This document shows positions 585 to 22,610 of a stretch of 32,525 bases of DNA, one piece after another (positions within the stretch are counted from its first letter, which is position 1; each line of letters opens with the position of its first letter). A program made the translations under genes and the position numbers. The DNA lies in assembly GCA_029226935.1 (NCBI GenBank), contig JAQXYZ010000121.1, positions 1 to 32,525 on the forward strand. The letters run 5' to 3'. This DNA is from Bacillota bacterium (GTDB taxonomy: Bacteria > Bacillota > Clostridia > Lachnospirales > Lachnospiraceae). Under the pieces are notes generated by a model that saw only the letters and a program-made list of their open reading frames with translations, did no database searches and was not told where the DNA came from.

Positions 585-3500
585 TCAAGCCGCATTCGGA
601 GTTGCCGCTGCATCCGGGAGCGGTGTCGACTCAGGATTTGATACCGGTGTAGGTGCCACTGTTGGAGTCGGTTCCACTGTTGGAGTCGGTTCCGCTGTCG
701 GTATGGATGTTGGCACTGCCGATGATGCAGGTGTCGGGCTTGGTGTTACTTCTGTATCCGGTGCTCCTGTGGGCAATGCCGATGGAACTACAGTTGCCAT
801 AGGTGTCGGCGATACTGTTGCTTCGGGAGTCCCCATAGGCGTCGCGGTCGGTGTCGGCGATACTGTAGGTGTTGCGGTGGGTACCAACGCTGTCGCAGAT
901 AAACGTCTCATGGAAAACATTGTGGGGGCTTCCGAACTGAATTCAGGCAGTTGGTCTGTCTTAAAACAGCTTAGCTTACCTTCACTATTTCCACACTCAA
1001 TCAGAAGTCGCCTTCCATCCCGCACATTCGAATACTCTACTTCCTCAAGCACTATGTCTGAACTCAGTTCATATGTTTCCTTCGAATACCATGTGCTTAC
1101 ATCTCCACCCGGCTTCTGGAGGCTCTGTATAATGTACTGATAAGTAGTAGTATCATCATTTATTAATTGGTTCCAATCAGAATCAGCCTCATTAACTGCT
1201 ATGTCTCCGCTCTCTTTCTTTATCATAATGAGCTTCCATTTAATTGTCTCTTCTTCATTGGACTCTTCTTCACTTGCCGCTTGCTTTTCAAAAATAAGCT
1301 GCGCGTTCTCACTTTCGGAATCACTGTTCAGTCTTACGTTCACGCTCATGAAAGTGCCCTCGGTTGTTGTTTCAATTGGAATTTTTTCACTACGATCTTC
1401 AATGCCAATCTGATACTCCGTTGCACCTCGATAACCTGTTACATCAAATTCCTTCTTATTATTATAGGTATCGGAAAAATCAGAAAAATCCAAAAAGCCT
1501 GTCAGGTAGTCTCTGGTTTCTATTCCGCCTTCACTGTTTACTGCCTCCATGGAAGCGGCATAGAGATAGAACGTCACATTCGTAACCTCTTCTTCAGTAT
1601 CCTCATCCTTATATGTTATGTTCAAAGATGTATTATCCACCAGTTCCACACTGCTAATCACATCAGTCCAATTCTCTTCTGTGGAACCTCCCAGGAGTTC
1701 CTTGAGAGAGCCACCCTCAAAGTAATCTGTATTATCATCTGAATCTTTAACTACTACCATCAGGTCTCTGTCTTCCCACACATCAGAATAGCTCTTTGAG
1801 GTCAAAGTAATCGTATCCGATAAGGAATAGATTGCATTTGAATAACATACGCCTTCTTTGCCTTCAACTTTATATCTGTAATACCCATAAGAATAATCTT
1901 TGTCCAGCGTATAACTATGGAATTGTCTGAGCTCCTTATCATAACTATAATACGCACCACCAATAACATCAATTCCATCCAGTTCCCAGGTATCATTCTC
2001 CACATCTAAAACAAAATTAATCTTTGCATCATCCCTTGCAATGTACTTGCCATCAGCCTCCTGAGAATAGGTCTTTACATCCACCATTCTGAATGTCTTA
2101 AGCTCACTATCAATTTCATCCATATCTTCAGTCGTTGGAACAGGGATACCGTCACTGCCATTTACCCGAATCCAGTATTCATATTCATCAATGGCTTCCG
2201 TCTTATCTATATCCTCCCATATCTGCATAAGCGGTTCCGAAATTCCGGTGGCAAAGTCATAGAGAAGCTGCGAGGTAAGATATTGTCCTCCATAGATTAC
2301 TTCACCCGTCTCCTTCTTCATATCCATTTTACTGCTAAGATAAAACTCTGTGCTATACAGTGTTTCCCTAATGTATTGCTTTTTATCAGGATTGAAATAT
2401 ACCCGAAGCGTATTATTCTCTCCGGCTTCAATTTTTTGAATGATATCTTCCCACTCACCTTGAACCGCCGGAACATTCTGATATACATATTTATTCAAAA
2501 AGTTCTTGTATGTAGGAAATATTTTCATATCCCCATAATATGCCTCATATTTCGTCTTATGAAGCGATTTGAAATTTTCAAAATAAATGGTAACACCATG
2601 GATTCTCTCAGTTTCCTGTGTTGACTTCTGATAAACGATTGCCCCCGTTCCATCCACTGACAGCAGATTTCTTAAGTTTGTCATATGCTCCGAAGAAATC
2701 CCCTTCTGCTTCAACAAATCCAGAAAATGGATCAAATCAATCTGACAAAAAGTGCTCAGATCCTCATTCCATCCAAACTCCATTACCTCATCTCTTGCTG
2801 CAACAAATTTGGAATACCAGTCAGGATCTGTATCGGCATATGTCATCATGTCTCTTGCCCATGCCTCAAATTCATCCCCCAATTCCAAAATCTTGTTCAG
2901 ATTAACCAACGACATGGTCTGAACCTGATTCAGATTGTAAGAAGACTTGTTCTTACAAAAATCATCTACAATCTTTTTTCCTATTGTTTCTATATCATTG
3001 CCCTGCAAGAGTTTGGGGAATTCACTGTACTCCCAGCCGCCGCGCTCTATCTCTTCCGAAGAAATATAGTAATTTCCATACTGCGCCAGCACTGCCATCA
3101 CCTCAATAGAGGACATCAGACAGGCATCCATACCGATAAAACTCCACTTCTTACCGTCCTTTCTCAGCTTACTGCTGTTAAAGGCAGAGCCAAGTTCAGG
3201 AAGCTCCAATAAATCTTTTTCATCACTATCCGTTTTTACATTCGCATCAATACATACACCTGCCACACCGGAGCCATGATTCCAGAGGATAATGCTGTAT
3301 TCCTCTGCCTTGTAATGGTCGTATGCAAAATCCATAAACCCTGCCAGTAATGCAGGATTTCCCATATTCTTCCCATCGACCCCCAAGGGCAGGTCTCTAA
3401 GGTCTGCCACCTTCTTTAAGGTATCTTCATTCAACAGATCACTTGCCTCTCGGGAGCTAAAGGTAGTTGCCTGAGGATGTACTTCATAAATCACTGCATT

Positions 3501-4346
3501 TTTATTTCCACAGCTATTCATTAAATATTGCTGGCTGGTATTGCTATTACTCCAATCTACATTCCCACCCAAAAGGACAAGCACATTTACCTCATCAGAA
3601 TCAAAATTTGAACTGATAAGCCCACTCAAATCCGTCGGTATCTGCGAAATAAGGTCAGAACCACAAAGGTAGATGAGCATGGTATGCTTTTTCTTTGCTG
3701 TATCTCCATCCGTAGGAAGTGTCATTTCCTTTCCTGTCTCATCCGTACAAATATACTGAGAAAGGTCAATCGGTGTAATTTCACTGTAAACCGGAAATGA
3801 GTAACCATTGGGACCCTTTTCTTCCCCGCGGGTTACCGTGATTTCCTGTTCTCCTCCCGAACCTGAATCTCCGGATGTTTCCGGCACCGCAGTGGGCTTA
3901 GGAGTAGGTTTGGGAGTCGCTGTAGGAGAAGCCGTTGGTGTTGGTGTAGAAGTTGGCGAAGTTGCACTCCCTTTTTGTTTTTTATTACTGCCTGACGCTG
4001 TATTTTCTGAATCGGATGCATCTGCTTCTTCGTTCTTTCCATTCTGCTCCGACTCCTGAACTTCCGTCATACCCGATTCATTCACAGAAGGCTCTTTGAA
4101 TGGGATCTGCGCTTCCTCTTGCTGCATATTCTGCAATGTTCCAATTGCTCCGCTTGAATCCCCCGCCGCATTTTTTCCGGCATTTTTCTGATAAAGACTT
4201 ACAGCTCCATAGGCGCCGATTCCTGACAGCAATACCAGCGCCAGAACGATTCCTGCGGTTGCAAGCTTATGTTCCTTCAGCCATCCCATCATGAGAAGGC
4301 TCTTTTTGCTTTTTTCTCCCTGCTGTTCATCTTCCCACTTTTTCAT
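585..4346 (-). CDS. Giant membrane-anchored clostripain-like (C11) cysteine protease
   Basis: This 1253-residue protein has a cytoplasmic N-terminus and one membrane segment at about residues 28-50. A Ser/Thr/Pro-rich linker (about 125-160) leads to an exported C11 peptidase domain from about 220. The catalytic His is seen in ILWNHGSG (His357) and the catalytic Cys in GMDACLMS (Cys409). C11 enzymes cleave after basic residues, usually after self-activation. The middle (about 650-1150) is an unrecognised, probably beta-rich region. The last about 95 residues are Pro/Thr-rich TPTATP-like repeats without an LPXTG motif, so anchoring is by the N-terminal helix. It is much longer than typical clostripains (about 500 residues). 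It follows the redox trio, from which it is separated by a terminator and its own TTGTGAC-repeat promoter. The start ATG has only a weak GAG-type ribosome binding site, so the start is moderately certain. Confidence 0.88.
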   Translation of the reverse strand: MKKWEDEQQGEKSKKSLLMMGWLKEHKLATAGIVLALVLLSGIGAYGAVSLYQKNAGKNAAGDSSGAIGTLQNMQQEEAQIPFKEPSVNESGMTEVQESEQNGKNEEADASDSENTASGSNKKQKGSATSPTSTPTPTASPTATPKPTPKPTAVPETSGDSGSGGEQEITVTRGEEKGPNGYSFPVYSEITPIDLSQYICTDETGKEMTLPTDGDTAKKKHTMLIYLCGSDLISQIPTDLSGLISSNFDSDEVNVLVLLGGNVDWSNSNTSQQYLMNSCGNKNAVIYEVHPQATTFSSREASDLLNEDTLKKVADLRDLPLGVDGKNMGNPALLAGFMDFAYDHYKAEEYSIILWNHGSGVAGVCIDANVKTDSDEKDLLELPELGSAFNSSKLRKDGKKWSFIGMDACLMSSIEVMAVLAQYGNYYISSEEIERGGWEYSEFPKLLQGNDIETIGKKIVDDFCKNKSSYNLNQVQTMSLVNLNKILELGDEFEAWARDMMTYADTDPDWYSKFVAARDEVMEFGWNEDLSTFCQIDLIHFLDLLKQKGISSEHMTNLRNLLSVDGTGAIVYQKSTQETERIHGVTIYFENFKSLHKTKYEAYYGDMKIFPTYKNFLNKYVYQNVPAVQGEWEDIIQKIEAGENNTLRVYFNPDKKQYIRETLYSTEFYLSSKMDMKKETGEVIYGGQYLTSQLLYDFATGISEPLMQIWEDIDKTEAIDEYEYWIRVNGSDGIPVPTTEDMDEIDSELKTFRMVDVKTYSQEADGKYIARDDAKINFVLDVENDTWELDGIDVIGGAYYSYDKELRQFHSYTLDKDYSYGYYRYKVEGKEGVCYSNAIYSLSDTITLTSKSYSDVWEDRDLMVVVKDSDDNTDYFEGGSLKELLGGSTEENWTDVISSVELVDNTSLNITYKDEDTEEEVTNVTFYLYAASMEAVNSEGGIETRDYLTGFLDFSDFSDTYNNKKEFDVTGYRGATEYQIGIEDRSEKIPIETTTEGTFMSVNVRLNSDSESENAQLIFEKQAASEEESNEEETIKWKLIMIKKESGDIAVNEADSDWNQLINDDTTTYQYIIQSLQKPGGDVSTWYSKETYELSSDIVLEEVEYSNVRDGRRLLIECGNSEGKLSCFKTDQLPEFSSEAPTMFSMRRLSATALVPTATPTVSPTPTATPMGTPEATVSPTPMATVVPSALPTGAPDTEVTPSPTPASSAVPTSIPTAEPTPTVEPTPTVAPTPVSNPESTPLPDAAATPNAA

Positions 4347-4435
4347 TTCACTGTTCTCGCTTTCTACCTTTCGAATACTTTCAGTTTATGTTCCAAATCG
4401 TAACTAAAAAAAATCATTAATATGTATATTGTTTC

Positions 4436-4469
4436 ATTATAACATAACAGGGTCACAAAAGGGACACAA
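4436..4469 (-). promoter_or_regulatory. Motif-A promoter before giant C11 protease
   Basis: On the minus strand, TTGTGTC (4469-4463), 4 nt, TTGTGAC (4458-4452), a 10-nt spacer and TATAAT (4441-4436) follow each other. The two heptads are 11 bp apart start to start and sit where a -35 box would be. Predicted transcription starts near 4428, giving an about 80-nt leader. The same arrangement occurs at 6766-6810 and 12734-12768. Confidence 0.75.
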
Positions 4470-4506
4470 AAACTCCCCATTCAACCGTTTCCGGCAGAAT
4501 GGGAAG
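4468..4506 (-). terminator. Rho-independent terminator of the redox-trio operon
   Basis: On the minus strand a stem CTTCCCATTC / GAATGGGGAG (one G-U pair) is extended by an inner GCCG-GAAA-CGGT stem with a GAAA tetraloop and followed directly by TTTTT (4472-4468). The stem lies 15 nt past the TlpA stop codon. Its U-tract overlaps the first heptad of the motif-A promoter for the next gene. Confidence 0.85.
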
Positions 4507-4521
4507 CCTTACTTGCTCATA

Positions 4522-5667
4522 TTATTTCAGTAATGCATTAATGTTGTCCATATAATATTCTGTCAAATCAACTCCCGAACGGGCACCGATCAGAACTTCT
4601 CCAATCAAATTTCCCTGGCTGTCCACGAAAATTGTGGTAGGCGTATAGATCGTATACTGTCCAACCAATTCCAACAGCTGTTCATTCATTACAAGCTGTG
4701 TAAATTTGACGCCGGCCTTTTCGGCAATTGCAGCTGCCAATTCCCCATTTTCTTCCCCATCTACACACAAGCCAATGATATTGGCATTCTCAGGGAGCTG
4801 TTCAAATGCTGCCTGAAGCTCAGGCATTTCTTCACGGCAGGGTCCACAGCCTGTTCCCCATATATTAATCATTGTCACCTCATAATCCTTGAAGATATCC
4901 TGTGTCACATTATTTCCGTTCAGATCCACTGTCTGGAAGGAGGACAGATTAATTGCAGATGCTTTATCTGCCGCTGCCTGCTCCTGTGCCTCATAGTCAA
5001 CCGCATGTGCCGGGAAGATAACCAGATTTTCTTTAAGTTCATCCATAGAATCAATTACATATTGAAATAGCATAAGATCTGTCTCGCTGTATCCCTCTGT
5101 GGGAAGTGCTTCATTATAACAGAAATAGTAGTCCTTTCCTCCAAAGGTTCCTACTTTTTCTACATAGGAAAAGCGATTTCCATAATCACGGTCTGCAAAG
5201 AACGCTTCTGTGCTTCCTGCATCTCTGGTAATGATTGCAACGAATGGAAAGCCGGTTTCAAATATCTTGTAGTATGCTTTCTGTTTCTTCTCTTTTGAAA
5301 CATTCAAATCCTCATTGATTTTTTTAAATTCCTGAACTGTCTCTGATTTACCAATGCAAAATACCAGAGCATTTCCACAGTAATCCAAATATAAGTGATC
5401 GCCCAGTTCATCAACGTGTTCCCAATCATTCCATCTGTCAGGAATACCAAGCCCAAACCCATACTCTTCCATGTTTAACGTTGCCTCAGGTGCCTCATTC
5501 CCCTTGACAGTTTTCATGCCCTCTTCGGTATACTCTTCATTAAAATAGACATCTTTCCATTCACCATCTTTAATGGTAATGGTCTCTTTTTTCTTTCCAC
5601 AACCTACCAGTGCTCCCACTGCCAAAGCAAGTACCAATAAAGCTGCTGTCAACTGTTTCTTTTTCAT
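4522..5667 (-). CDS. TlpA-type thioredoxin-fold lipoprotein
   Basis: The start is ATG 5667, which overlaps the upstream stop as ATGA and has GGAGG four bases before it. A longer frame to 5742 exists but lacks the signal sequence at its end. The 381-residue product has a lipoprotein signal (lipobox ALVGC, Cys23) and an unrecognised N-terminal region of about 215 residues (motif GFGLGIPDRWNDW). A C-terminal TlpA/ResA-like thioredoxin domain carries the CGPC active site (Cys274, Cys277) in NIWGTGCGPC and the cis-Pro region YTPTTIF. It should reduce or oxidise disulfides outside the membrane, with electrons probably passed from the polytopic 4Fe-4S protein encoded just upstream. The long extra N-terminal domain is unusual for TlpA proteins and may bind a client. 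Confidence 0.9.
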   Translation of the reverse strand: MKKKQLTAALLVLALAVGALVGCGKKKETITIKDGEWKDVYFNEEYTEEGMKTVKGNEAPEATLNMEEYGFGLGIPDRWNDWEHVDELGDHLYLDYCGNALVFCIGKSETVQEFKKINEDLNVSKEKKQKAYYKIFETGFPFVAIITRDAGSTEAFFADRDYGNRFSYVEKVGTFGGKDYYFCYNEALPTEGYSETDLMLFQYVIDSMDELKENLVIFPAHAVDYEAQEQAAADKASAINLSSFQTVDLNGNNVTQDIFKDYEVTMINIWGTGCGPCREEMPELQAAFEQLPENANIIGLCVDGEENGELAAAIAEKAGVKFTQLVMNEQLLELVGQYTIYTPTTIFVDSQGNLIGEVLIGARSGVDLTEYYMDNINALLK

Positions 5668-6521
5668 ATTTTCCTCCATTCTTCTGCCCTGTGGATACAA
5701 CCCTTCGGACAGGCATCCATACAGTTTCCACACCGAATACATTCCGGTGAGTTAATATCTTTGGTAACTTCAACTCCCATTTTACAGGTTCGCTCACACG
5801 TCTTACAGTTGACACATTTGCTCTTGTCAACTGTAAGACGGTACAGACTGAATTTATTAAAGAAGGAATAAAACGCTCCCAAAGGACATAGATATTTACA
5901 GAATGGTCTGTATATAATCATGGAAAGCACGATAATCAAAATTAATATGGATAACTTCCATCCGAATAATCCACCTATAGAGTTTCTTAACGGCGCATTT
6001 AGAGTAATTAGCGGCAATCCTGCTCCAAAGGTTCCTGCGGGGCACACATATTTACAGAACCATGTCTTTCCAAACCCAAACTCATCTCTCACAAATATGG
6101 GGAGAATGAGCACAAATAAAAATAACATCACATATTTCAGATAGCGAAGATACCTGTCCAATTTAACAGGAAGTTTTACCTTTTTAACCGGAATCTTATG
6201 AAGAAGATCCTGAAGCCATCCAAAGGGACATAAGAATCCACATATTACCCTTCCCAGCAGAACGCCGAACAGCATCAACGTTCCAAGTACATAGAAGGGA
6301 AATCTGTATTTATATCCGCTAAGCAATGACTGCAAAGCACCAATTGGGCATGCTCCCAGCGCTCCGGGGCAGGAATAGCAGTTTAATACAGGCACGCAGA
6401 ACTGCTTTGATTTTCCGGTAAAGATACTGCCCTTCTGATAACCAATGGCATAACCGTTAAACAATACCGTTGCCAGTAGCTGTATGATATTTCTTTTTGT
6501 TTCCTGTTTTACCTTTTTCAT
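5664..6521 (-). CDS. Polytopic 4Fe-4S membrane protein (NapH/CcoG-like)
   Basis: This 285-residue protein has about five membrane segments and three CxxxCP motifs typical of the NapH/RnfB-associated family (CGFLCPFG, CKYVCPAG, CKYLCPLG), plus an N-terminal CYSCPGALGAC stretch. The C-terminus has two ferredoxin-type clusters: Cys236/239/242/246 (CVNCKTCERTC) and Cys261/264/267/271 (CIRCGNCMDAC). It likely moves electrons across or to the outer face of the membrane to feed the TlpA lipoprotein. The start ATG 6521 has a GAGGGA ribosome binding site. The gene begins 13 nt after the CXXC micro-protein and overlaps the TlpA gene by 4 nt, so translation is probably coupled. Confidence 0.9.
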   Translation of the reverse strand: MKKVKQETKRNIIQLLATVLFNGYAIGYQKGSIFTGKSKQFCVPVLNCYSCPGALGACPIGALQSLLSGYKYRFPFYVLGTLMLFGVLLGRVICGFLCPFGWLQDLLHKIPVKKVKLPVKLDRYLRYLKYVMLFLFVLILPIFVRDEFGFGKTWFCKYVCPAGTFGAGLPLITLNAPLRNSIGGLFGWKLSILILIIVLSMIIYRPFCKYLCPLGAFYSFFNKFSLYRLTVDKSKCVNCKTCERTCKMGVEVTKDINSPECIRCGNCMDACPKGCIHRAEEWRKI

Positions 6522-6534
6522 TTGTTTCTATCCC

Positions 6535-6693
6535 TCATCCTATTCCAATGCACTGAAGGCAGACACTTACTGCCTTTTTCAGCACCTCTAACTGTTCTCC
6601 TCTGATAACTCCAAAGGTAATACTGGCAGCAGCCAGTACCAGAAGGGAAATTCTCAGTGTCCAGAGCTTCTTTTGTTCCATTCCTGTAATCAT
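6535..6693 (-). CDS. CD1871A-family CXXC micro-protein (52 aa)
   Basis: This small gene is easily missed because a longer shadow frame overlaps it. It encodes a 52-residue protein with one membrane helix (LRISLLVLAAASITFGVIRG) and a C-terminal CLQCIGIG tail, which is the hallmark of the CD1871A-type CXXC family known from clostridia. Start choice is open: ATG 6693 has AGAAAGGA almost touching it, and ATG 6681 (MEQKKLW) is the alternative. It is first in the operon with the 4Fe-4S protein and the TlpA lipoprotein, directly after the motif-A promoter at 6766-6810. The C-terminal CXXC may be a redox partner of one of those two proteins; this is inference. Confidence 0.82.
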   Translation of the reverse strand: MITGMEQKKLWTLRISLLVLAAASITFGVIRGEQLEVLKKAVSVCLQCIGIG

Positions 6694-6765
6694 TCCTTTC
6701 TCTGATATTCTTTTCTGACCTCTTAAATGACAAATTTTCTGTTGAATTTTCCAAAGTCCTTATTC

Positions 6766-6810
6766 ATTATAACATCCAAAGGTCACAAAAGAGACGCAAA
6801 AGGGACACAT
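6766..6810 (-). promoter_or_regulatory. Motif-A promoter before redox trio (three repeats)
   Basis: On the minus strand three heptads ATGTGTC (6810-6804), TTGCGTC (6799-6793) and TTGTGAC (6788-6782) are spaced exactly 11 bp. They are followed by a 10-nt spacer and TATAAT (6771-6766). Predicted start is near 6759, about 65 nt before ATG 6693. The upstream two repeats overlap the terminator hairpin of the preceding operon. Confidence 0.78.
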
Positions 6811-6833
6811 TCACTCTTTTGTGCCCCTTTTGC
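6796..6833 (-). terminator. Hairpin terminator of the partner-switch operon
   Basis: A 13-bp stem with one mismatch (GCAAAAGGGACAC with GTGCCCCTTTTGC on the plus strand) and a 12-nt loop starts 1 nt past the stop codon at 6835. On the minus strand it is followed by GTCTCTTTT, a modest T-rich tail. The stem contains the two upstream motif-A repeats, so terminator and operator share bases. Confidence 0.65.
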
Positions 6834-6834
6834 A

Positions 6835-7242
6835 TCATATTTTTTTCCACATAGTCAGAATATTTTCATGGTTTTCATAAGTGTAACTGTATCCATCCAT
6901 ATTTTTCTTCATGAGATAAATTCCCAGACCGCCCACTTCTCTCTCCTCTGCCGGAAGAGTCACATCGGGTTCCGGCTTATCCAGCGGATTAAATGGGATG
7001 CCCTGATCTCTAAACCGAAAAGTAAAGGTCTTCTCACAATCGTCATAGTCAATACCCAGCAACATTTCCCCCGTCTTTTCGGGGTAAGCATAGTGAGCAA
7101 TATTGACAAAGATTTCTTCGATGGAAACTGTGATCTGCATTAAAGTCCTCATTGGACACTCTGCCTTTTCAAGTTCTTCCTCTGCAAATGCTATCACCTT
7201 ATTTAAAGCAGCATCTTCTGCCGGGAAACTCTGCTCTGTCAC
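6835..7242 (-). CDS. RsbW/SpoIIAB-like anti-sigma serine kinase
   Basis: This 135-residue protein has a Bergerat-fold (HATPase_c) domain. The N-box is SIEEIFVNIAHYAYP (about residues 40-54), the G1 region DQGIPFNPL and the G2 region VGGLGIYLMKKNMD. Family members bind a partner and phosphorylate a STAS antagonist on Ser. It starts with GTG 7242, overlapping the phosphatase stop codon (GTGA), so the two are translationally coupled. No sigma factor gene is adjacent, so the protein it restrains is unknown and may be coded elsewhere or may not be a sigma factor. Confidence 0.88.
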   Translation of the reverse strand: MTEQSFPAEDAALNKVIAFAEEELEKAECPMRTLMQITVSIEEIFVNIAHYAYPEKTGEMLLGIDYDDCEKTFTFRFRDQGIPFNPLDKPEPDVTLPAEEREVGGLGIYLMKKNMDGYSYTYENHENILTMWKKI

Positions 7243-9014
7243 AAAACCGCCTCCTCCTGTGCATGCTTTCGAAAATCCAACATCAACATAGTAATATCAT
7301 CAAACTGCGGTGCTTCTCCTACGAACTGATCTAGCTCCGTTTTCAGCTTCCGAAGCACTTCTTCTGTTCCATCAGAACTATGCTTGTTCATGAACTCCAG
7401 CAGCCGTTCTTTGCCATAGAGCTGCTTATCTGTATCAGTAGCCTCGGTAACCCCATCTGTATAGAGGAACAACCGATCGCCGGGCTGCAAGTATAATTCG
7501 TTTTTCTGATATCCTGCAAAATCAGTTAACGCCAGCACAAAACCGGGCTTTGATTCTAAATAGACAAACTTCCCACCCTTAAGTTTAAGAAGAGGCGCTT
7601 CATGGCCGGCATTCGCATAAGTAAGTTTTCCGCTTGTCAGCTCCAGAATGCCCATCCACGCTGTCACAAACAGCCCCATGTCATTCCCCTCACTGAGCAG
7701 GCGGTTGACATTTGCAAACACTTCATTTACTTCCTGCCCTGTCTGCGCCTGATTTTTAATCAGTGTTTTGGCAATGACCATAAACAGTGCAGCAGGAACC
7801 CCCTTGCCTGAAACGTCTGCAATTACAATCGCAAGATGATTTTCATCCAGCATAAAAAAGTCATAAAAATCTCCTCCAACCTCTTTTGCCGGTGTCATAG
7901 TCGCATACAGTTCAAACTCCTCATGCTCCGGAAAGGGAGGGAAAATACAGGGGAGCATATGTGCCTGAATATCCGATGCCAGAGAAAGCTCCGTATTAAT
8001 CCGTTCCTTTTCTGCGGTTGCACTCTTTAAGTCTTCCATATAAAGCTCCATATCCCGAATCATGGTAATATATGATCTTGCCAGATTGCCCACTTCTGTA
8101 GAATCCCCTGCGTATTTCTCACATTCCTCCATCATCTCCCTGCGCTTTACATCATCGGAATGTGCCACATAATAGCGTTTTGCAATCTTTGAAAGATTTT
8201 CAATGGGAAGGGCAATTCTTTTTTCTGTAAACCACATAAATCCCATGGAAAGAGCAAAATAAAAATTAAATGCCACCATCTCAAACAAGTACATCTGCCC
8301 CCAGAGACTTAAGGTGCTTTCGCTCGTATTCAACCTGTCAGTCACATAAACCGATGCTCCAATCAAGAAACAGATACCGATACCTGTAATGATCGTATTA
8401 ATAATCATTCTCTCATTTAAGGAAAAGGTAAACACCTTTTTCCTTTCATCACTGCGCAGATTCTCAAGATACCTCTGCAGGAAATGTCCCCCAATTAAAA
8501 TAGGACAGCCATACAACAATCCCGCATCAAAGCTCTTAAAGAAAAGATAAAGATTCTGAATGGAAATAAAATCTGTTACGGAATAGGCCTGATTAAGAAT
8601 ACCGGTACAAAGGACAATCAAAAGCGAATCAATCAGCATTACCAGACAGAACCGCAGCATCCTTGCGATGCTGTCAAGGCAGAATTCACTTCCATCCCGC
8701 TCCGTATTCAATCTCCTCCACAGAAAATAGGGCACCATCCCATACAAAATCTGCTGCAGACTTCCTATCATGGCATAAGAAATTTCATACCCTGACAACA
8801 AATCAGCCGCAAGATTTCCTGCCGCGCAGCCCAAAGCTGCCGGCAGACCGAAAATCAATCCCAGTACAGGCGTCAATGCCGTATCCGGGCGCATCTCGGT
8901 TATATTGGCTATAGACATCCACATTTGAAATGGAATTGTTAAAATCAGAAACAGGAAACCACTGAGCAGGAATATAATCCCTGCATTCTCATACCGGTTG
9001 GTTTTTATTTTCAT
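7239..9014 (-). CDS. Membrane SpoIIE/PP2C-family phosphatase
   Basis: The 591-residue protein has about six membrane segments in its first 260 residues, a HAMP-like linker and coiled-coil (about 265-345), and a C-terminal SpoIIE/RsbU phosphatase domain. Metal-binding motifs are present: GGDFYDFF (380-387), DVSGKG (400-405), DGVTE (520-524) and DDIT (572-575). It should dephosphorylate the STAS protein encoded just upstream, releasing the kinase to bind it. The first membrane part (GLPAALGCAAGNLAADLL) resembles small-molecule S-component-like membrane domains rather than a periplasmic sensor; this is a weak similarity. AAGGGA precedes ATG 9014. It lies 20 nt after the STAS gene and overlaps the kinase gene by 4 nt. 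Confidence 0.92.
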   Translation of the reverse strand: MKIKTNRYENAGIIFLLSGFLFLILTIPFQMWMSIANITEMRPDTALTPVLGLIFGLPAALGCAAGNLAADLLSGYEISYAMIGSLQQILYGMVPYFLWRRLNTERDGSEFCLDSIARMLRFCLVMLIDSLLIVLCTGILNQAYSVTDFISIQNLYLFFKSFDAGLLYGCPILIGGHFLQRYLENLRSDERKKVFTFSLNERMIINTIITGIGICFLIGASVYVTDRLNTSESTLSLWGQMYLFEMVAFNFYFALSMGFMWFTEKRIALPIENLSKIAKRYYVAHSDDVKRREMMEECEKYAGDSTEVGNLARSYITMIRDMELYMEDLKSATAEKERINTELSLASDIQAHMLPCIFPPFPEHEEFELYATMTPAKEVGGDFYDFFMLDENHLAIVIADVSGKGVPAALFMVIAKTLIKNQAQTGQEVNEVFANVNRLLSEGNDMGLFVTAWMGILELTSGKLTYANAGHEAPLLKLKGGKFVYLESKPGFVLALTDFAGYQKNELYLQPGDRLFLYTDGVTEATDTDKQLYGKERLLEFMNKHSSDGTEEVLRKLKTELDQFVGEAPQFDDITMLMLDFRKHAQEEAVL

Positions 9015-9034
9015 AAGGATTCCCTTCTTAAGGA

Positions 9035-9325
9035 CTATTCAAACTGAAAAACATCTGCAAATCCGGTCACATTAAATACTTCCATCACAATGTCACCTGC
9101 ATTACGGATTACCATATTCTGTTTTGCCAGCTTGAACAGGGAAAACAGTACCCGCAGCCCTGCTGAAGAAATATATTCCAAATCCTTAAGGTCAAAAACC
9201 AGTTCCGTTGCATTTGCCATTGCTTCCTTTACTTCCTTCTCAAGCTCCGGCGCTGTCATGGTATCCAGTCTGCCTTCCACCTTTACTGTTAATTTGTTTG
9301 CAACCAGTTCTTTTTCTATTTTCAT
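9035..9325 (-). CDS. STAS-domain anti-sigma factor antagonist
   Basis: The protein is 96 residues from ATG 9325, which has GGAGG eight bases upstream. A longer GTG start at 9340 would overlap that ribosome binding site and the preceding stop codon, so it is rejected. It is a complete STAS domain with the conserved phospho-acceptor loop LEYISSAGLRVL; by analogy with SpoIIAA the second Ser (Ser54) is the phosphorylated residue. When dephosphorylated by the SpoIIE-type enzyme it should bind the RsbW-like kinase, both encoded downstream in the same operon. Confidence 0.92.
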   Translation of the reverse strand: MKIEKELVANKLTVKVEGRLDTMTAPELEKEVKEAMANATELVFDLKDLEYISSAGLRVLFSLFKLAKQNMVIRNAGDIVMEVFNVTGFADVFQFE

Positions 9326-9339
9326 TTTTCTTTCCTCCA

Positions 9340-9924
9340 CTAAAATTTCTTCACTATTATAATATCAACATAATTTGTCCTTGCACCTACAATAACCTCA
9401 TCCGCAATGTTTGCGACAATAGACTTTTCTAATTCATCCCAGACTTCCATATTCTGTTTTTCTTGCTCTCTGTACTGGGTCAGCGTCCAAATCTGTTCAT
9501 ATGCGATTGCCGGGCTGGTAAGAACCATGGAATTTCCCATATCATAGTTTGAAAAGCATATTCCATTTACCGGATCATTCATCATATTGTCTGCAATTTC
9601 CCTGACCTTCCCCATAAATCCGCTGTATGCCTTGTTTTGATTATCTGTGGAAAGCTGGACAAATTTTTCCTTCGTCCACTCTTCTACCCTTATATCGGAA
9701 TGAAGACGCAGGTTATAGGTTTTGCCTCTGTTTTCCACATAAAATGTCCCCTTCACAAACCCAAGAATACCTTTCTGCATACCCAGCAATTCTTCGGCAA
9801 GCAAACGCAGTTGAAGCGTCTCTTTTTTGGTCATCTGATTGTACTGTGCAACCTTCTCCACTTCCTGCAATGCATGTGCAATGTCAGGATCTCTTCCTTC
9901 CAGGATACATTCGTCCGATTTCAT
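9340..9924 (-). CDS. Degenerate ATPase-like protein, first gene of partner-switch operon
   Basis: The start is ATG 9924 with GGGAG at a good distance, giving 194 residues; the longer frame to 9963 lacks a ribosome binding site. The stretch LQLRLLAEELLGMQKGI (about residues 37-53) looks like a GHKL/HATPase N-box, and NYVDIIIVKKF at the end resembles the last strand of that fold. I see no convincing G-box, so it may not bind ATP. It leads the STAS-phosphatase-kinase operon and starts behind the motif-B promoter. A role as second kinase-like binding partner or scaffold in the switch is plausible but is inference. Confidence 0.78.
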   Translation of the reverse strand: MKSDECILEGRDPDIAHALQEVEKVAQYNQMTKKETLQLRLLAEELLGMQKGILGFVKGTFYVENRGKTYNLRLHSDIRVEEWTKEKFVQLSTDNQNKAYSGFMGKVREIADNMMNDPVNGICFSNYDMGNSMVLTSPAIAYEQIWTLTQYREQEKQNMEVWDELEKSIVANIADEVIVGARTNYVDIIIVKKF

Positions 9925-10001
9925 ATTTTTCTCCCTTCTTGTATGTAAAATGGTATGAACCAAATCTGGTGTAACCCCAGTATCTTGTATATAACATATT
10001 T

Positions 10002-10036
10002 TTTATAGCATATCAAGTGTAACTAAACCGTAACCG
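10002..10036 (-). promoter_or_regulatory. Motif-B promoter before partner-switch operon
   Basis: On the minus strand CGGTTAC (10036-10030) and TAGTTAC (10025-10019) lie 11 bp apart start to start, followed by an 11-nt spacer and TATAAA (10007-10002). Predicted start is near 9995, leaving an about 70-nt leader. The layout matches the M13-operon promoter at 22577-22610. The remaining 10037-10183 stretch is AT-rich, with no gene and no clear terminator for the protease upstream. Confidence 0.68.
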
Positions 10037-10183
10037 ATAAAAAGCAGTCTACACTTTTATGGAGGAGCAAATTTATAAAAATAGATGTTACCGTTAATTT
10101 GGGAGTAATCTTTTCTGCCGGAATATACGACCTGAATTTTTCTTTTTCGTTTATTTTCATTCTCCCATTCATACAGAAATTTT

Positions 10184-12703
10184 TTAATCCGCGGTTGTAA
10201 TCACCTGAATGTCCTCTGCCACATTCATATCCGTGATCCTTCCGCCACGAACCGTAAATCTGACTGCCGGAGTGTAATATTCATCTCCTCTGGTATCCTT
10301 AAAGGTTATGAACTCAACATAATCTCCATCATCAAGGAACCGATCCTCCAGTTTCGTGTTACCTTTGTACCTGAATGCTTTCCCATACTCAATGGTATAG
10401 CTATCCTCATCCATACCATTGGTATAGTAAATAGGACGAATCTTAGCTCCCGGCTCCACATTTCGGGTAATACGGTTTACAGTGTCTGCTTCAACATCCG
10501 AATTTGGGTACATGTCTACGACTCCTGCAATACTCATCTCTTCCGTTTCAAAATCATAACCAAGAAGCAGGTAAGAATCTACACCGTTGTAGGAAACTGC
10601 TGCCCTGTATCTGATAGAAGACTCTGTTTCGTCCACCTTCTCTACCATCAGGAAATGTCCATCAATGGAAACCCATTCCCCATCAAATGAGGTTTGAATA
10701 TTTCCCTCACCATCAAAGGACAGGAAGTTATCGCCACCATAATAAACTGCCTTTCCATCATCCTCATCCATTCTGAAAAGATCCAGCGTCATACTCTGAA
10801 TCAGAGTCTCCTGTTCCTCATCCACGGGCACGCTGAAGTTTCCGTTTCCATCCAGCTTAGGAACTGCATTTGCCATGTTCTTAAGTGGTGTAGTGTCAAG
10901 AACTCTTGCTTTTCCATATCCCTTTTCATCTGCATAAGCCTGTAATTCGTCATTCAGGCAGCCTGCAAATTTATAGTAATAAAGTGCATTAATATCCTGA
11001 TTGTCACATACTTCATCCATATATTCCAAATACTTGTGCAAACCATAAACATCGTCAATGTCTGTAGGAAAGTAAACAGAAAGCCCCTTTGATTCTTTTC
11101 CATAGGAGGTCGCTCTGCGATAAAGAACCGCATCCTCCAATGTCATCTGAACCTTCTGCGTTTCTGAAGGATACTCCTCTGCAAGATTTTCCATGAATAC
11201 CCCTAAATCCACTGTATTATAATAATTATAGACATTGCATCCGTACCTTACGGAGCCATTGGCAGCACGACCTAGCTGTGTAAGGACTCCCGGATCATTC
11301 ATTGCATCTTTAAGCGCTGCTGCTGCAAATTCTCCATAAGCCTCATAGACTTCATGCGCTTTGGGAATATCAACCACAGAGAAGGTACACATATTTTCTA
11401 TATTCATCCATGACAGCACTGCGGACTGATTTGCATAATATTCAATATAGGAATCTGCAATTGCTTTTCCCACCTGGGCAGCGTTCATTCCCGGATTCTG
11501 TACCAATTTATCGGCCCAAGTTGTATAATCCCAGCCATCTCCAGGTTCCAGTTCCTCACTTCCCACCAGATATTGTCCGTATCCATTTAAGCTTTCTGCC
11601 ACCTCAAGGGATGCCATCAGGCAGGCATCAAATCCAATAATTTCATAAGGTGGTTTGGAAGGGTTGCTGCCATGGGCACTTGCCAGCGCCTCCCGTATTT
11701 CTTTCAAAGTCAGACCATCGTGTCCATAGAGTTCATCAGCGCCAAATCCAAAAGCGCCGCCGCCGTGATCCCAGAAAATCAGCATCTCATGATCTGCCGA
11801 ATAGTTCTTCTTACAGAATTTCAGGAAATCTGACAGTGTTTTTGCATCCCCTGTATTCTGTGGAACGTTGTTCTCCACTTCCCTGAAACCTTTGCTGTCA
11901 TAGACAAAACGCTGGGAACGGTTGGGATTAATGCCGGTCTTTCCCCAACTGGTAGCCCCGCCAGTCTGATAGACTACCTTGATATTATCGGGAAGTGCAA
12001 CCGCAAGCATCTCTTCTATATCGTTGGTTGCACAGGGAGTATATTCACTTGCTCCTTCTTCCTCCTGTTCTTCCACCTGCTTTACCGGAAGGTACATAAA
12101 TGCCGGGAAATCCAGTCCCTGGCTGCTGATTTCTGATGCAAAAGTTGCAAGTCTTGCACGTCTGACAGTCTTTGCCTCTTCTTTATACGCTTCTGCCTCC
12201 CCTGCAACCAGAGCCCTGGTCAGGTCAGAAAGTTCAACAATTTCGTTGCTTTCCAGATTGCTTCCGCAGACATAGACGTAAATTGCCCATGTATCATCCT
12301 CATCATAGGACTTTGTCCGGGCAATCAATGCATCCCCTCTCTCATCGAGTGGTGCTATCTTAAGGATTTCCTCCAAAGATGCCTTCTGCTCTAAACAAGC
12401 GTCCCTAAACTCAAGCAGTGCCGCAATGAAAATCTTTTGTCCGTAAAAGAGCAGAAAAGCTCCTGTAACTGCAGCCGCCACCAATACAACGCTAACACGT
12501 TTTACCCAGTGCAGAATCTTTCCCTTCCGGTCAAGATTCCTGTATTTTTCCTTTTTCTTTGCTTTCTTTTCGGAACGAACGGCTTTCTTCTTTGCTTTTT
12601 TTTCAGCACGAGCCGCCTTTTTTTCGGCTTTCTTTTCTGCCTGGGATGCCTTTTTTTCTAATTCTTCCTCAAGCTGTAAAGTTTTTTGTTCTTTATTGTT
12701 CAT
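10184..12703 (-). CDS. Membrane-anchored clostripain-like (C11) cysteine protease
   Basis: The start is ATG 12703 with GAGGA eight bases before it; the longer frame to 12748 runs through the promoter and is rejected. The 839-residue product begins with a highly charged cytoplasmic AEKKA/KKK repeat segment (about residues 18-52) that may form a helix. One membrane segment follows at about 66-87, then an exported C11 domain. The catalytic His is in IFWDHGGG (His313) and the Cys in GFDACLMA (Cys361). After the protease (about 130-600) there is a beta-rich C-terminal part of unknown role. It is a distant paralogue of the giant C11 protease at 585-4346 and shares its promoter type. The insertion EEQEEEGASEYTPC near 210-225 could be an activation or exposed loop; this is a guess. 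Confidence 0.9.
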   Translation of the reverse strand: MNNKEQKTLQLEEELEKKASQAEKKAEKKAARAEKKAKKKAVRSEKKAKKKEKYRNLDRKGKILHWVKRVSVVLVAAAVTGAFLLFYGQKIFIAALLEFRDACLEQKASLEEILKIAPLDERGDALIARTKSYDEDDTWAIYVYVCGSNLESNEIVELSDLTRALVAGEAEAYKEEAKTVRRARLATFASEISSQGLDFPAFMYLPVKQVEEQEEEGASEYTPCATNDIEEMLAVALPDNIKVVYQTGGATSWGKTGINPNRSQRFVYDSKGFREVENNVPQNTGDAKTLSDFLKFCKKNYSADHEMLIFWDHGGGAFGFGADELYGHDGLTLKEIREALASAHGSNPSKPPYEIIGFDACLMASLEVAESLNGYGQYLVGSEELEPGDGWDYTTWADKLVQNPGMNAAQVGKAIADSYIEYYANQSAVLSWMNIENMCTFSVVDIPKAHEVYEAYGEFAAAALKDAMNDPGVLTQLGRAANGSVRYGCNVYNYYNTVDLGVFMENLAEEYPSETQKVQMTLEDAVLYRRATSYGKESKGLSVYFPTDIDDVYGLHKYLEYMDEVCDNQDINALYYYKFAGCLNDELQAYADEKGYGKARVLDTTPLKNMANAVPKLDGNGNFSVPVDEEQETLIQSMTLDLFRMDEDDGKAVYYGGDNFLSFDGEGNIQTSFDGEWVSIDGHFLMVEKVDETESSIRYRAAVSYNGVDSYLLLGYDFETEEMSIAGVVDMYPNSDVEADTVNRITRNVEPGAKIRPIYYTNGMDEDSYTIEYGKAFRYKGNTKLEDRFLDDGDYVEFITFKDTRGDEYYTPAVRFTVRGGRITDMNVAEDIQVITTAD

Positions 12704-12733
12704 CCCATATTCCTCACTTTCATGATTTCCTCT

Positions 12734-12768
12734 ATTATATAACAACAACAGTCACAAAAGAGACACAA
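12734..12768 (-). promoter_or_regulatory. Motif-A promoter before second C11 protease
   Basis: On the minus strand TTGTGTC (12768-12762), 4 nt, TTGTGAC (12757-12751), an 11-nt spacer and TATAAT (12739-12734) are seen. A degenerate third copy may lie at about 12772-12779. Predicted start is near 12727, only about 24 nt before ATG 12703. The heptad pair, the 4-nt gap TCTT and the -10 box closely match those at 4436-4469 and 6766-6810. Confidence 0.76.
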
Positions 12769-12787: not shown

Positions 12788-14089
12788 TTATTGTTTTGGT
12801 AAATGAATGCAGGCAGTTGTCCCGCTTCCCGGCTTGGATACGATCTCCAGTGTACCATTACACATGATGCGGACCCTTGTCCTGACATTTTCTATTCCGG
12901 TATGGCTTCGTCCGTCATCCGGCACATTTCCAACCTCAAAGCCGATGCCATCATCCACTATGCAGACTTCAAAGCTGTTCTCCTCCTCTCTCGTTGTAAT
13001 CGTTATCGTCCCTCCTCCATTTTTTTTGCTTAAGCCATGCTTGACCGCATTTTCTACAAGAAGCTGAACCGAAAGTGCCGGCAGCATAAACCCATCTGCC
13101 TGAAGGTCATATTGAATATTCAACTCCTCCTCAAAACGCATCTTTTCCAATACCAGATAATTGGCAACATGCTCCAGCTCCTTTGCAATCGGAACCGGTA
13201 CATTACTTTTCACAGAATCAAGATTAACTCTCAGATAATCCGAAAAATGACTTACTGCCTTCTGTGCTTTTCCGGGTGAAGTCCCGCACAGATAGTAGAT
13301 TGTATTAAGCACATTATAAAGAAAGTGTGGTTGAATCTGCGAAAGCACAAGCCGCATCTGCATTTCACCGGTTTTCTTTTCCTGCTCCACCAGTTCATTG
13401 GTTCTCTTAACCAGTTCCCGCATATATTCCACCTGGGCATTCATAAAAATCCAAAGTACCGAAATGGTAATAGCAAGATTCAATAATGCAATCCCATAAT
13501 AAAAGAGCTGAATAGAAACTGCAGCCGCCGGAAGAAATATATAGGAAAGAAGTGCAACGATCCTGTTTCTGCTTATCCGTTTCCGATAATATATAATCAT
13601 CACTCCACATACAAGCATCCCTAAAAGTCCCATTGCCTGCAAAACAAAAAACCAGTCTTTCCGGTAATAAAAATTCCGGACATCAAAATCATAAAATATG
13701 GGAAAGAATTGGTTAAGCAGACACCCAAAAATTCCGGCACCGCCAAGACCGTATACCAGAATGTACCAAATCCTTCCAACGCCCCGTTTTTCATCAATCA
13801 GTCCGACAACATAATGAAAAAAGGCCAGCAATAGCAGATTACAGCTGGCAAATACCATTCCATTACTAAGCCGCACCATAATATACCCCAGCGTTCCTTC
13901 GTCCCCCCTGAATGCCCATGCCATCACATCCATGCACAAAAGCAGGGCATTTAAAAGAAGCATCTTAAGCAGACGGATGTTTGTTCTGTAATTGACCATC
14001 CTTCCCATATAAACACATGATGCACACAAAATACAAAAAACAATTCCCCATATTTCCAGTGCGATATGTACAACAGCCATCAGACTCAT
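12788..14089 (-). CDS. LytS-type sensor histidine kinase 2
   Basis: The preferred start is ATG 14089 (AGGGG seven bases upstream), giving 433 residues; an in-frame TTG at 14110 is less likely. About six to seven membrane helices fill residues 1-220 with no large external domain, followed by a short coiled coil. The His_kinase (LytS/YehU-type) domain has the phospho-acceptor His255 in LSQIQPHFLYNVLN. A HATPase domain follows, with N-box LLVENAVKHGL and G-box DDGIGFE. It is the last gene of the long operon, 31 nt after its presumed partner regulator 2. The kinase-after-regulator order is the reverse of pair 1. The signal is unknown; a membrane-embedded or small hydrophobic cue fits the domain plan. 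Confidence 0.9.
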   Translation of the reverse strand: MSLMAVVHIALEIWGIVFCILCASCVYMGRMVNYRTNIRLLKMLLLNALLLCMDVMAWAFRGDEGTLGYIMVRLSNGMVFASCNLLLLAFFHYVVGLIDEKRGVGRIWYILVYGLGGAGIFGCLLNQFFPIFYDFDVRNFYYRKDWFFVLQAMGLLGMLVCGVMIIYYRKRISRNRIVALLSYIFLPAAAVSIQLFYYGIALLNLAITISVLWIFMNAQVEYMRELVKRTNELVEQEKKTGEMQMRLVLSQIQPHFLYNVLNTIYYLCGTSPGKAQKAVSHFSDYLRVNLDSVKSNVPVPIAKELEHVANYLVLEKMRFEEELNIQYDLQADGFMLPALSVQLLVENAVKHGLSKKNGGGTITITTREEENSFEVCIVDDGIGFEVGNVPDDGRSHTGIENVRTRVRIMCNGTLEIVSKPGSGTTACIHLPKQ

Positions 14090-14120
14090 TCCGAATCCCC
14101 TGCCTTTCAAAATCCCCTTA

Positions 14121-14945
14121 TTATGTTAATCTTCCCCACGTTTCCAACAGCCCGTGGGTATATTCACTCCAGCTATACTGCACCATGTATTCTCCCCGAT
14201 AGGCATTCACTGCCTCAGGCTTTCCTGCTATGAAATCAAAATAATCACACTCAATCTTATCGGGAAGGATTGCCGTCATCCCTCTCTGTCTTACAAAGAC
14301 ATCCCCGCAGCCTGCCCGGGTCAATGTGGCAAACAGGTCTGCCCGGAGATTTTTCATGTAAGAGCTATGATTTCCCTGCTTCACATCATCTTCCCATAAA
14401 ATCTCCATAATATCCTGGTTGCTGCAAAGCGCACCGTTTCGGTCAATCAGATAAGCAAGCAGCTCTTTGGTTCTGTTATACTGGAACTTCAGCGGTTTAC
14501 CATCCACAAACACCTCAAAATTTCCGAAAGTTACCACTTTCATGCGCTTTTTTTCATCCGTCAAAAGAGGATAACGCAGATTTTTCATCTCATTTTTTAT
14601 TTTCTCAGCCGTTACAGGTTTGAGACAGTATCCGCTGGCATGTATTCGAAATGCATTTTCCGCGAACTCTGCATATCCAGTGGTAAAAATGATATTTATT
14701 TGGGGATTGGTTTCCTTTAGCTTTTCTGCCAGCGTAAGTCCATTCATTTCCCGCATTTCCATGTCAAGAAAAGCAATATCAAATTGTTTTTCTTTGGCAC
14801 ATACAAGTGCCTCTGATGCCCTTCTGAATCCTCTGATTTCTGCCTTCATTCCTTCCACTGCACTATGGATTTCCTTCATAGCGCTCTCCAGAGCCATTCT
14901 TTCATCATCAACCACAAGTATCTTCACTACTTCTACTTCCTCCAT
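14121..14945 (-). CDS. Response regulator 2, receiver plus SARP-like winged helix
   Basis: The start is ATG 14945 with AAGGA seven bases upstream, preferred over the in-frame GTG at 14969; the product has 274 residues. The receiver domain carries the acidic pair in VVDDE, phospho-acceptor Asp61 (AFLDMEM) and Lys in LKPV. The output is an OmpR-type winged helix (VTFGNFEVFVDGKPLKF ... LLAYLIDRNG). It is followed by a short tail YRGEYMVQYSWSEYTHGLLE that matches the first helices of a bacterial transcriptional activation (BTAD) domain. LytS-type kinases usually pair with LytTR regulators, so this output domain is notable. It is a paralogue of regulator 1 (16128-16925) and a candidate for binding one of the 11-bp repeat motifs. 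Confidence 0.9.
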   Translation of the reverse strand: MEEVEVVKILVVDDERMALESAMKEIHSAVEGMKAEIRGFRRASEALVCAKEKQFDIAFLDMEMREMNGLTLAEKLKETNPQINIIFTTGYAEFAENAFRIHASGYCLKPVTAEKIKNEMKNLRYPLLTDEKKRMKVVTFGNFEVFVDGKPLKFQYNRTKELLAYLIDRNGALCSNQDIMEILWEDDVKQGNHSSYMKNLRADLFATLTRAGCGDVFVRQRGMTAILPDKIECDYFDFIAGKPEAVNAYRGEYMVQYSWSEYTHGLLETWGRLT

Positions 14946-14987
14946 TGTATGTTCCTTTTCCAGCCGCACTCTGCTTAGTTCTTTCTA

Positions 14988-16127: not shown

Positions 16128-16925
16128 TTACTTGATAGATTTAATATTGCTAAGCTGGGCGTTTCTTGTCTCTGCCCAGGAGTATTGTCTCATATATTCT
16201 CCTCCATAGTTCTTGATTGCCTCCCGGTCTCCCTCAAGAATACGGTACAAATCACATTCCACCTGTTGGGTTAAAAGATATCTTTTTCGCCCATCAGAAG
16301 AAATTATATCCTCAATTCCCTTTTCTTTCAAGCTATCCAGCATACGTTTGTAGGTCATCCGATATAAAGACTGGGTATTTCCATCAGCAGTCCGCTCCGG
16401 CCAGAGACAGGAAATTGCTTCTCCCGTAGTCACTCCCTCACCTCCCCTGTCTACAAAAAAAGCAAACAGCTCCTCCACCTTAGACCTCCCCCAAATCATT
16501 CTTACCCCATCTACAAAAACTGTAAATCCCGGTATCGTCTGTATTTTGATTCTCTTTACCGGCAATGGGCAGAACTTAGCCACCTTAGTCAACTCTTTTC
16601 TGATCTCCTGCCGCGTATAAGGCTTAAGAACATATCCTATCGCCTCCACTCCAAATGCCTGCAACGCATATTGTGCAAATGCGGTAACAAAAATAATGCA
16701 AAGATCCGGCACAATCTTTTTCAGTTCCCTTGCAAGCAAAAGCCCATGCATCTCCTGCATTTCCAAATCAAGAAATGCCGCATCTACATGGTGTTCTTTG
16801 CTCCATGCAATCGCATCATTTCCTCGCTGGAACAGCTGCAAATCTTCTATTTCAGGGAAGTCCATAACCGTAAACCGGAAATTATCCAATGCAGGTTTTT
16901 CGTCATCTACGCAAATTATATTCAT
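16128..16925 (-). CDS. Response regulator 1, receiver plus SARP-like winged helix
   Basis: The start is ATG 16925, seven bases after AAGGAG; an ATG at 16931 is closer than ideal. The product has 265 residues. The receiver domain has CVDDE, phospho-acceptor Asp53 (AAFLDLEM) and LKPY. The winged-helix output (PGFTVFVDGVRMIWGRSKVEELFAFFVDRGG) is followed by a short BTAD-like tail (YGGEYMRQYSWAETRNAQL). It overlaps the 3' end of kinase 1 by 23 nt, so it is the clear partner of that kinase. It may autoregulate the operon through the motif-B promoter at 22577-22610; this is inference. Confidence 0.92.
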   Translation of the reverse strand: MNIICVDDEKPALDNFRFTVMDFPEIEDLQLFQRGNDAIAWSKEHHVDAAFLDLEMQEMHGLLLARELKKIVPDLCIIFVTAFAQYALQAFGVEAIGYVLKPYTRQEIRKELTKVAKFCPLPVKRIKIQTIPGFTVFVDGVRMIWGRSKVEELFAFFVDRGGEGVTTGEAISCLWPERTADGNTQSLYRMTYKRMLDSLKEKGIEDIISSDGRKRYLLTQQVECDLYRILEGDREAIKNYGGEYMRQYSWAETRNAQLSNIKSIK

Positions 16926-20298: not shown

Positions 20299-20321
20299 AA
20301 CATTTCTCCATTCTTTTATAC

Positions 20322-22576: not shown

Positions 22577-22610
22577 ATTATATCATATAACCGTAACCTA
22601 AACGTAACCG
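22577..22610 (-). promoter_or_regulatory. Motif-B promoter before M13-ABC-two-component operon
   Basis: On the minus strand CGGTTAC (22610-22604), 4 nt, AGGTTAC (22599-22593), a 10-nt spacer and TATAAT (22582-22577) follow each other. Predicted start is near 22570, about 23 nt before ATG 22547. The spacing is identical to the motif-A promoters although the heptad sequence differs. Confidence 0.75.

Follow-up and report, generated by a model that had tools for sequence, protein, structure and literature searches.

In a 32,525-nucleotide stretch of DNA from a Lachnospiraceae bacterium (contig JAQXYZ010000121.1 of assembly GCA_029226935.1; hereafter, the window), three promoters carry a seven-nucleotide direct repeat with an 11-bp period, TTGTGWC-N4-TTGTGAC (Motif A). 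We propose, with a probability of roughly 0.78, that Motif A is the activator-type operator of RR1, a response regulator encoded in the window, and that its sister regulator RR2 reads a heptad of its own and has traded targets with it. The boxes, their geometry, their frequency relative to chance and the pairing of regulators and boxes across genomes were read from sequence; from these we infer that RR1 is phosphorylated, that it binds, and that it activates and does not repress, as well as where the operons end and what physiological role they have.

The three sites are almost the same in sequence and all lie on the minus strand. Site 1 (4469-4436), before the gene for C11 (clostripain family) protease 1 (585-4346, minus strand), reads TTGTGTC CCTT TTGTGAC and is followed after 10 nt by TATAAT. 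Site 3 (12768-12734) reads TTGTGTC TCTT TTGTGAC, has TATAAT 11 nt further on, and lies directly behind the genes for RR1 and its neighbouring histidine kinase, HK1, and before the gene for C11 protease 2 (10184-12703, minus strand, with a likely ATG start at 12703). Site 2 (6810-6766), before a set of CXXC, 4Fe-4S and TlpA-like genes, has three in-phase heptads, two of them imperfect (ATGTGTC CCTT TTGCGTC TCTT TTGTGAC), with TATAAT after 10 nt. Rereading the sequence confirmed what the first-pass annotation had reported of these promoters: their places and strand, the TTGTGTC and TTGTGAC heptads in 11-bp phase with a 4-nt gap and TATAAT 10–11 bp on, a third in-phase copy at one site (site 2, the extra copies being imperfect), and the two C11 proteases and the CXXC/4Fe-4S/TlpA-like set downstream.

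These sites are not expected by chance. With at most one mismatch, Motif A occurred three times in the window, compared with a mean of 0.025 (largest 1) in 200 dinucleotide shuffles, while with three mismatches it fell to chance level (5 found, 5.24 expected). A heptad-blind scan, for any 7-mer repeated at 11 bp with at least six of seven positions identical and standing 9–11 bp before a perfect TATAAT, also returned three promoters in the window (100 shuffles: mean 0.14, largest 2), namely sites 1 and 3 and a separate one at 22609; site 2 was missed because its last two heptads agree at only five of seven positions. In the genome-wide scan that had been recommended for the motif, the pattern TTGTGWCNCTTTTGTGAC had four matches at up to one mismatch in the own genome (2.59 Mb) and its reversed control none. 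Three of these near-exact copies are in the window and one is elsewhere (site 4, C67:27016-27033; L025:7034-7001, minus strand; TATAAT at 10 nt). At up to three mismatches there was no excess in this genome (20 matches, reversed control 22). The best -35 hexamer at each of the four sites matched TTGACA at two of six positions, a match beaten by 69% of random window positions, and the -35 match never exceeded 2/6 in any of the six promoters examined. The box thus stands where the -35 is poor, as is expected of activator-dependent promoters.

In the comparison with other genomes, RR1-type regulators recurred together with the motif, whereas the list of targets did not recur. The closest relative of RR1 that we found, in genome G432 (L081), is 72% identical overall and 81% identical in the DNA-binding domain; the only further locus from the same homologue search was L082, at 45% identity. 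This RR1 (277.5 bits) is the sole family member in G432 at E<=1e-10, and the genome has five Motif A matches at up to one mismatch, four of them with a -10-like hexamer at 10–11 nt (TATAAT twice, TATACT and TATGAT) and the fifth (C183) without any. RR1 is followed by a kinase gene, and the perfect box lies 39 nt past it; a one-mismatch box precedes another His_kinase gene, and two further boxes are elsewhere. When 397 genomes of the bacterial family were scanned for the motif regardless of regulators, two of the 22 matches outside the own genome had TATAAT at 9–12 nt, and both of these sit at RR1 homologues: in G430 the box lies 24 nt past the last codon of the homologue, and in G277 it heads a same-strand run whose fourth and fifth genes encode a His_kinase protein and the RR1 homologue. 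Because these regulators went into the domain model (A1), the high ranking of G430 and G277 by that model is not independent evidence.

Among the other 20 matches of the family scan, L094 and L103 have TATACT at 10–11 nt and L092 (G312) has TATTGT only; none was used for the score matrix described below. Matches at up to one mismatch in G030, G025 (C98), G018 (three) and G026 (one) were dropped, as they had no -10 at 9–12 nt.

RR1 (14121-14969, minus strand) has a receiver and a predicted, divergent OmpR-like winged helix and is the proposed reader of the RR1 box, as we call Motif A with its promoter. Its proposed partner is HK1 (12788-14110, minus strand), a LytS-type kinase with His_kinase (PF06580) and HATPase_c domains. 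The second regulator of the family, RR2 (16128-16931, minus strand), is likewise accompanied by a proposed partner kinase, HK2 (16903-18723, minus strand). Both regulators matched the receiver domain PF00072 (E = 4.2e-19 for RR1 and 3.6e-18 for RR2), and D69, the phosphorylatable aspartate of the receiver, is invariant in four aligned regulators. RR1 and RR2 are paralogues with 34% identity, and the own genome has no further member of their DNA-binding family at E<=1e-10. Their presumed recognition helices are unlike (HSSYMKNLRADL and TQSLYRMTYKRM, respectively). Pfam found no Trans_reg_C match in RR2, no BTAD domain (PF03704) in either protein up to E=10, and neither a LytTR nor an AraC domain in RR1 or RR2. 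A short conserved tail, CDYF...GEYMxQYSWSE, could be a remnant of a BTA domain. An AlphaFold2 model of RR1 (mean pLDDT 70.8) has a receiver followed by strands, three helices and a hairpin, and a Foldseek search with it placed PhoP, DrrB and PrrA on top, with TM-scores of only about 0.3–0.5; the predicted fold is a receiver plus a winged helix. Modelled alone, the DNA-binding domain reached a pLDDT of only 44. The structure alignment rows (VIA-align) fall mostly in the receiver and therefore carry little information on the winged helix, and a sequence search of PDB with the domain profile returned the response regulator 1p2f (E = 0.054), SaeR (E = 0.23) and nothing else.

PF06580 kinases, as in the LytS-LytTR and YesM-YesN systems, usually pair with LytTR or AraC regulators. 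HK1 shares this kinase type, but RR1 and RR2 gave no match to either of these regulator domains. The geometry of Motif A instead resembles that of two other groups. The PHO box of PhoB/PhoP, which are OmpR/PhoB response regulators, also consists of a pair of 7-nt direct repeats separated by 4 nt (11-nt units) and bound head to tail (PMC4415409), and its consensus is described as shifting from species to species along with the contacts that the regulator makes (PMC4415409, PMC4832192). RR1 differs from PhoB/PhoP in its heptads, in a winged helix that falls below the Pfam threshold, in its extra conserved tail, in the PF06580 His_kinase of its system and in its proposed targets, which comprise protease, redox and envelope genes. 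SARP activators, among them AfsR, have an OmpR-type domain and bind 11-bp direct repeats that extend over the -35 at poor promoters (PMC10936776), as at Motif A. In SARPs, a BTA domain follows, whereas RR1 has a receiver and no detectable BTA domain, and the 3' repeat lies 8 bp from the -10, compared with 10–11 here (a distance that depends on where the repeat is taken to end). We therefore did not file RR1 as a SARP. The first-pass annotation, which had attributed the repeats to an OmpR/SARP-type winged-helix activator encoded nearby, appears to have been right in kind.

By analogy, we propose that RR1 works like PhoB or a SARP. HK1 would phosphorylate RR1, which would then bind head to tail as a dimer to two heptads one helical turn apart. 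The dimer would cover the usual place of the -35 and recruit sigma-A RNA polymerase to a TATAAT promoter in which a proper -35 is missing, in the manner of PhoB and SARP proteins, and in the own genome RR1 would turn on the two C11 proteases and the CXXC/4Fe-4S/TlpA redox set. HK2-RR2 would read GGTTACG in the same geometry and control the gene cluster to which it belongs, along with further envelope genes. The two regulators would have swapped targets through gain and loss of boxes.

The box attributed to RR2 lies before the M13 peptidase-ABC-HK2-RR2 genes (22577-22609, minus strand) and reads GGTTACG TTTA GGTTACG (22609-22592), with TATAAT after 9 nt. A weaker RR2 box (10002-10035, minus strand), before the genes 9340-9963/STAS/SpoIIE/HATPase, reads GGTTACG GTTT AGTTACA (10035-10018), with TATAAA after 10 nt; it has two mismatches and is unchanged in the closely related genome G025. 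In three further genomes, G018, G023 and G026, the family is represented by a single regulator of RR2 type, and in all three (L073, L232 and L072, respectively) GGTTACG-N4-RGTTACG with TATAAT stands just before RR2 itself. In the own genome, one more RR2-type copy (C87:9280) has TATAAT at 9 nt and another (C10:15562) is conserved in G025 and has no -10 at the right distance; each precedes a gene that reads as lipoprotein-like. In G432, with its single RR1, all seven matches to the RR2-box pattern had two mismatches, equal to the control (7). The case for RR2 rests on the copies with up to one mismatch, their promoters and their conservation, and its control was pooled over mismatch classes. 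Two other such matches were rejected, L224 (G018) for lying inside an open frame and L238 (G023) for having no -10. The first-pass annotation had named both nearby regulators as candidate readers of Motif A; this would hold for RR1, which fits the motif, and not for RR2, whose own box is GGTTACG-N4-GGTTACG. In G023 the RR2 frame (L232, C8) has the DNA-binding domain and no receiver part, and another locus of that genome (L076, C84) has SpoIIE and 4Fe-4S matches in pieces and no TlpA match, as if the RR2 system there were decaying.

Boxes appear to have turned over between close relatives. About 50 nt after the RR1 box of site 1 lies a ruined RR2 box (4388-4405, minus strand; AGTTACG ATTT GGAACAT). 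At the matching place, G025 has an intact one, GGTTACG-GTTT-GGTTACG (GGTTACGGTTTGGTTACG), followed after 10 nt by TATAGT, and its RR1 box before the first C11 gene has decayed to TAGAGTC-CCTT-TTGTGAA, with TACAAT. At the first C11 promoter of the own genome, therefore, the RR1 box is intact and the RR2 box is ruined; in G025 it is the other way round. In G018, the genes for a SpoIIE-HATPase protein, a TlpA-like protein, two other proteins, and the CXXC and 4Fe-4S proteins follow in that order on one strand, and ahead of the run stands an exact RR2 box whose -10, TAATAT, is weak; the redox genes therefore seem to be RR2 targets in G018 and RR1 targets in the own genome. The first-pass annotation had tied its proposal to conservation of the motif before orthologous proteases, and such conservation is not broad: the G025 box is decayed and the G018 redox genes stand behind an RR2 box. 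The protease-redox regulon that it predicted survives as a small, putative one in the own genome, with a target list that is not conserved across relatives. C11 protease 2 of G025 (L057, C179) is 97.7% identical to the window over 1.25 kb, compared with 85.4% over the neighbouring 3.4 kb, a jump that suggests recombination or a mixed assembly.

We investigated whether 11-bp repeats accompany related regulators more widely. A DNA-binding domain of this kind was found at E<=1e-15 in 138 of the 397 sampled genomes. Sixty loci were picked by regulator score (a first 20, then the next 40), and in the first 20 boxes were sought with a matrix built from 11 known sites plus a -10 term. Among the first 20 loci, seven scored above 16 (30.5, 25.8, 25.6, 25.5, 20.5, 17.0 and 16.6), compared with none of 20 other regions of the same genomes (largest 10.2; p=0.0009). 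At several others of these loci, different heptads occurred in 11-bp pairs: TTGTCCC (L183, two promoters), TTGCAAC (L187, L192), CTGCAAC (L195) and KTGTAAC (L196). A heptad-free count on both strands of the first 20 loci gave 10 pairs in the 19.3 kb beside regulator genes, 15 in the remaining 289 kb and 10 in control regions totalling 306 kb. For the next 40 loci, the figures were 14 pairs in the 39.8 kb flanking the regulator and 14 in the remaining 158 kb. Over all 60 loci, on the same strand and within 500 bp of the regulator gene, there were 19 hits (18 loci) at period 11, while the 17 remaining periods between 7 and 24 gave 0–4 each. All periods were tested on the same flanks, so bias from promoter-rich flanks is controlled. 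Period 11 was unremarkable away from regulator genes (35 hits; other periods 12–53) and in control regions (15 hits; other periods 5–37). The distance from box to -10 across the 60 loci peaked at 10–11. At the RR homologue loci L082 and L071, no box exceeded the listed shuffles, and that at L074 scored 8.7, under the shuffle maximum of 11.4.

On balance we lean slightly towards these regulators forming a large undescribed response-regulator family, each member with a private heptad in an 11-bp repeat over a poor -35, often beside the regulator gene, with paralogues exchanging targets by box turnover. If this is true, the operator could be read straight from the neighbourhood of the regulator, and the first C11 promoter, compared between two close relatives, would show an exchange of targets in mid-course. 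Genome sequence alone would then supply testable operators for many two-component systems that are still uncharacterised. A likely owner would be named for two small envelope regulons (proteases, redox, partner switching), paralogous regulators swapping targets between close relatives would offer a natural case for study, and the differing heptads in one fixed geometry would be raw material for a recognition code. In the open-access literature (titles and abstract beginnings), none of the matches listed dealt with such regulators in this bacterial group or with regulation of these C11 genes.

Three observations stand beside this survey. The TTGCAAC box at L187:2005- (G393) adjoins the regulator and heads a gene whose start resembles that of a flagellin. 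In two lineages, a regulator-side box heads the same kind of gene (MNNN.L.PFERNRYYAGKMLTSADF...; L081:5826-7737 and L191:9515 onward); the L081 protein had no Pfam match above threshold. At L146:4659- (G107), a box-like site, TTGTGACGCTTGTGTGAC, has TATACT 10 nt further on and is followed by a 1302-aa open frame. It stands some 130 nt past a SARP-like gene, in which Trans_reg_C and BTAD domains were matched and a receiver was not.

Several results weigh against RR1 as the reader of Motif A or against the wider family. Chief among them, G025 keeps an exact site 2 (its two downstream heptads, TTGTGTC and TTGTGAC) although RR1 is missing from its fragmented assembly; in that assembly, which is 91% complete and has a contig break inside C11 protease 2, only RR2 was found. 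Site 4 is directed towards the 3' end of a PilZ gene that runs convergently, and no evident gene follows it, only an 8-codon open reading frame (MTCVAVWC); it may be an antisense RNA promoter or a relic. Without the -10, the count of the family scan was near its control (22 outside the own genome, 18 reversed); in the comparison with related genomes recommended at the outset, the TATAAT-bearing matches supported the proposal and the motif count did not. The winged helix of RR1 scored 19.5 bits with the Pfam Trans_reg_C model, below the cut-off of 26.2. The RR2 pattern at up to two mismatches showed no excess in the own genome (11 matches, control 19). Among the regulator loci, 13 of the first 20 lacked a window-like box and 42 of the 60 lacked an adjacent same-strand 11-bp pair under these criteria, and box and regulator similarity were weakly linked (Mantel rho 0.19, p 0.037, n=24).

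The nature of the regulation must also be weighed, since a repressor of the same family at the same place could look alike: a protein on this stretch would block polymerase, and boxes of the two kinds are indistinguishable by sequence. We nevertheless consider repression unlikely, given the poor -35 at all six promoters and a geometry equal to that of PHO and SARP boxes. That RR2, alone or together with RR1, reads Motif A appears quite improbable. RR2 is encoded nearby and is a paralogue of RR1, and the intact site 2 of G025 would suit it, but in the RR2-only genomes the near-exact Motif A matches (three in G018, one in G026) lack a -10 at 9–12 nt, G023 has no match by the stricter pattern, and all three have the GGTTACG box before RR2 itself, the opposite of RR1-only G432; the differing presumed recognition helices point the same way. 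It is very unlikely that the promoters belong to an alternative sigma factor under the control of the SpoIIE/STAS/HATPase switch, although that module lies between the sites and a gene reading by eye like the window's HATPase is near one G432 box; the -10 is the sigma-A consensus, and the signal consists of a direct repeat with an 11-bp period, which is placed beside regulator genes and varies in its heptad with the regulator. Duplication of one promoter with no common regulator, hinted at by a few bases after the -10 common to sites 2 and 4, is more improbable still, as the same box precedes other genes beside RR1 homologues in other genera.

The genes behind the boxes of the window all lie on the minus strand. 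Site 2 precedes a small CXXC protein of 52 aa (6535-6693), a 4Fe-4S protein (5664-6521; best NCBIfam match NapH/MauN, below its cut-off) and a TlpA/ResA-like protein with an AhpC-TSA/Redoxin domain (4522-5742). Behind the weaker RR2 box lie the partner-switching genes (6835-9963), which encode a protein of unknown type (9340-9963), a STAS protein, a SpoIIE phosphatase and an HATPase_c_2 protein, and between the stronger RR2 box and HK2-RR2 lie genes for an M13 peptidase, an ABC ATPase and a weakly matched ABC permease (18750-22547). A frame of 1760-1772 aa at 27207-32525 had no Pfam match up to E=10. Judged by eye, each of the two C11 proteases has a hydrophobic stretch close to its N terminus, so that they are probably membrane-anchored and act outside the membrane.

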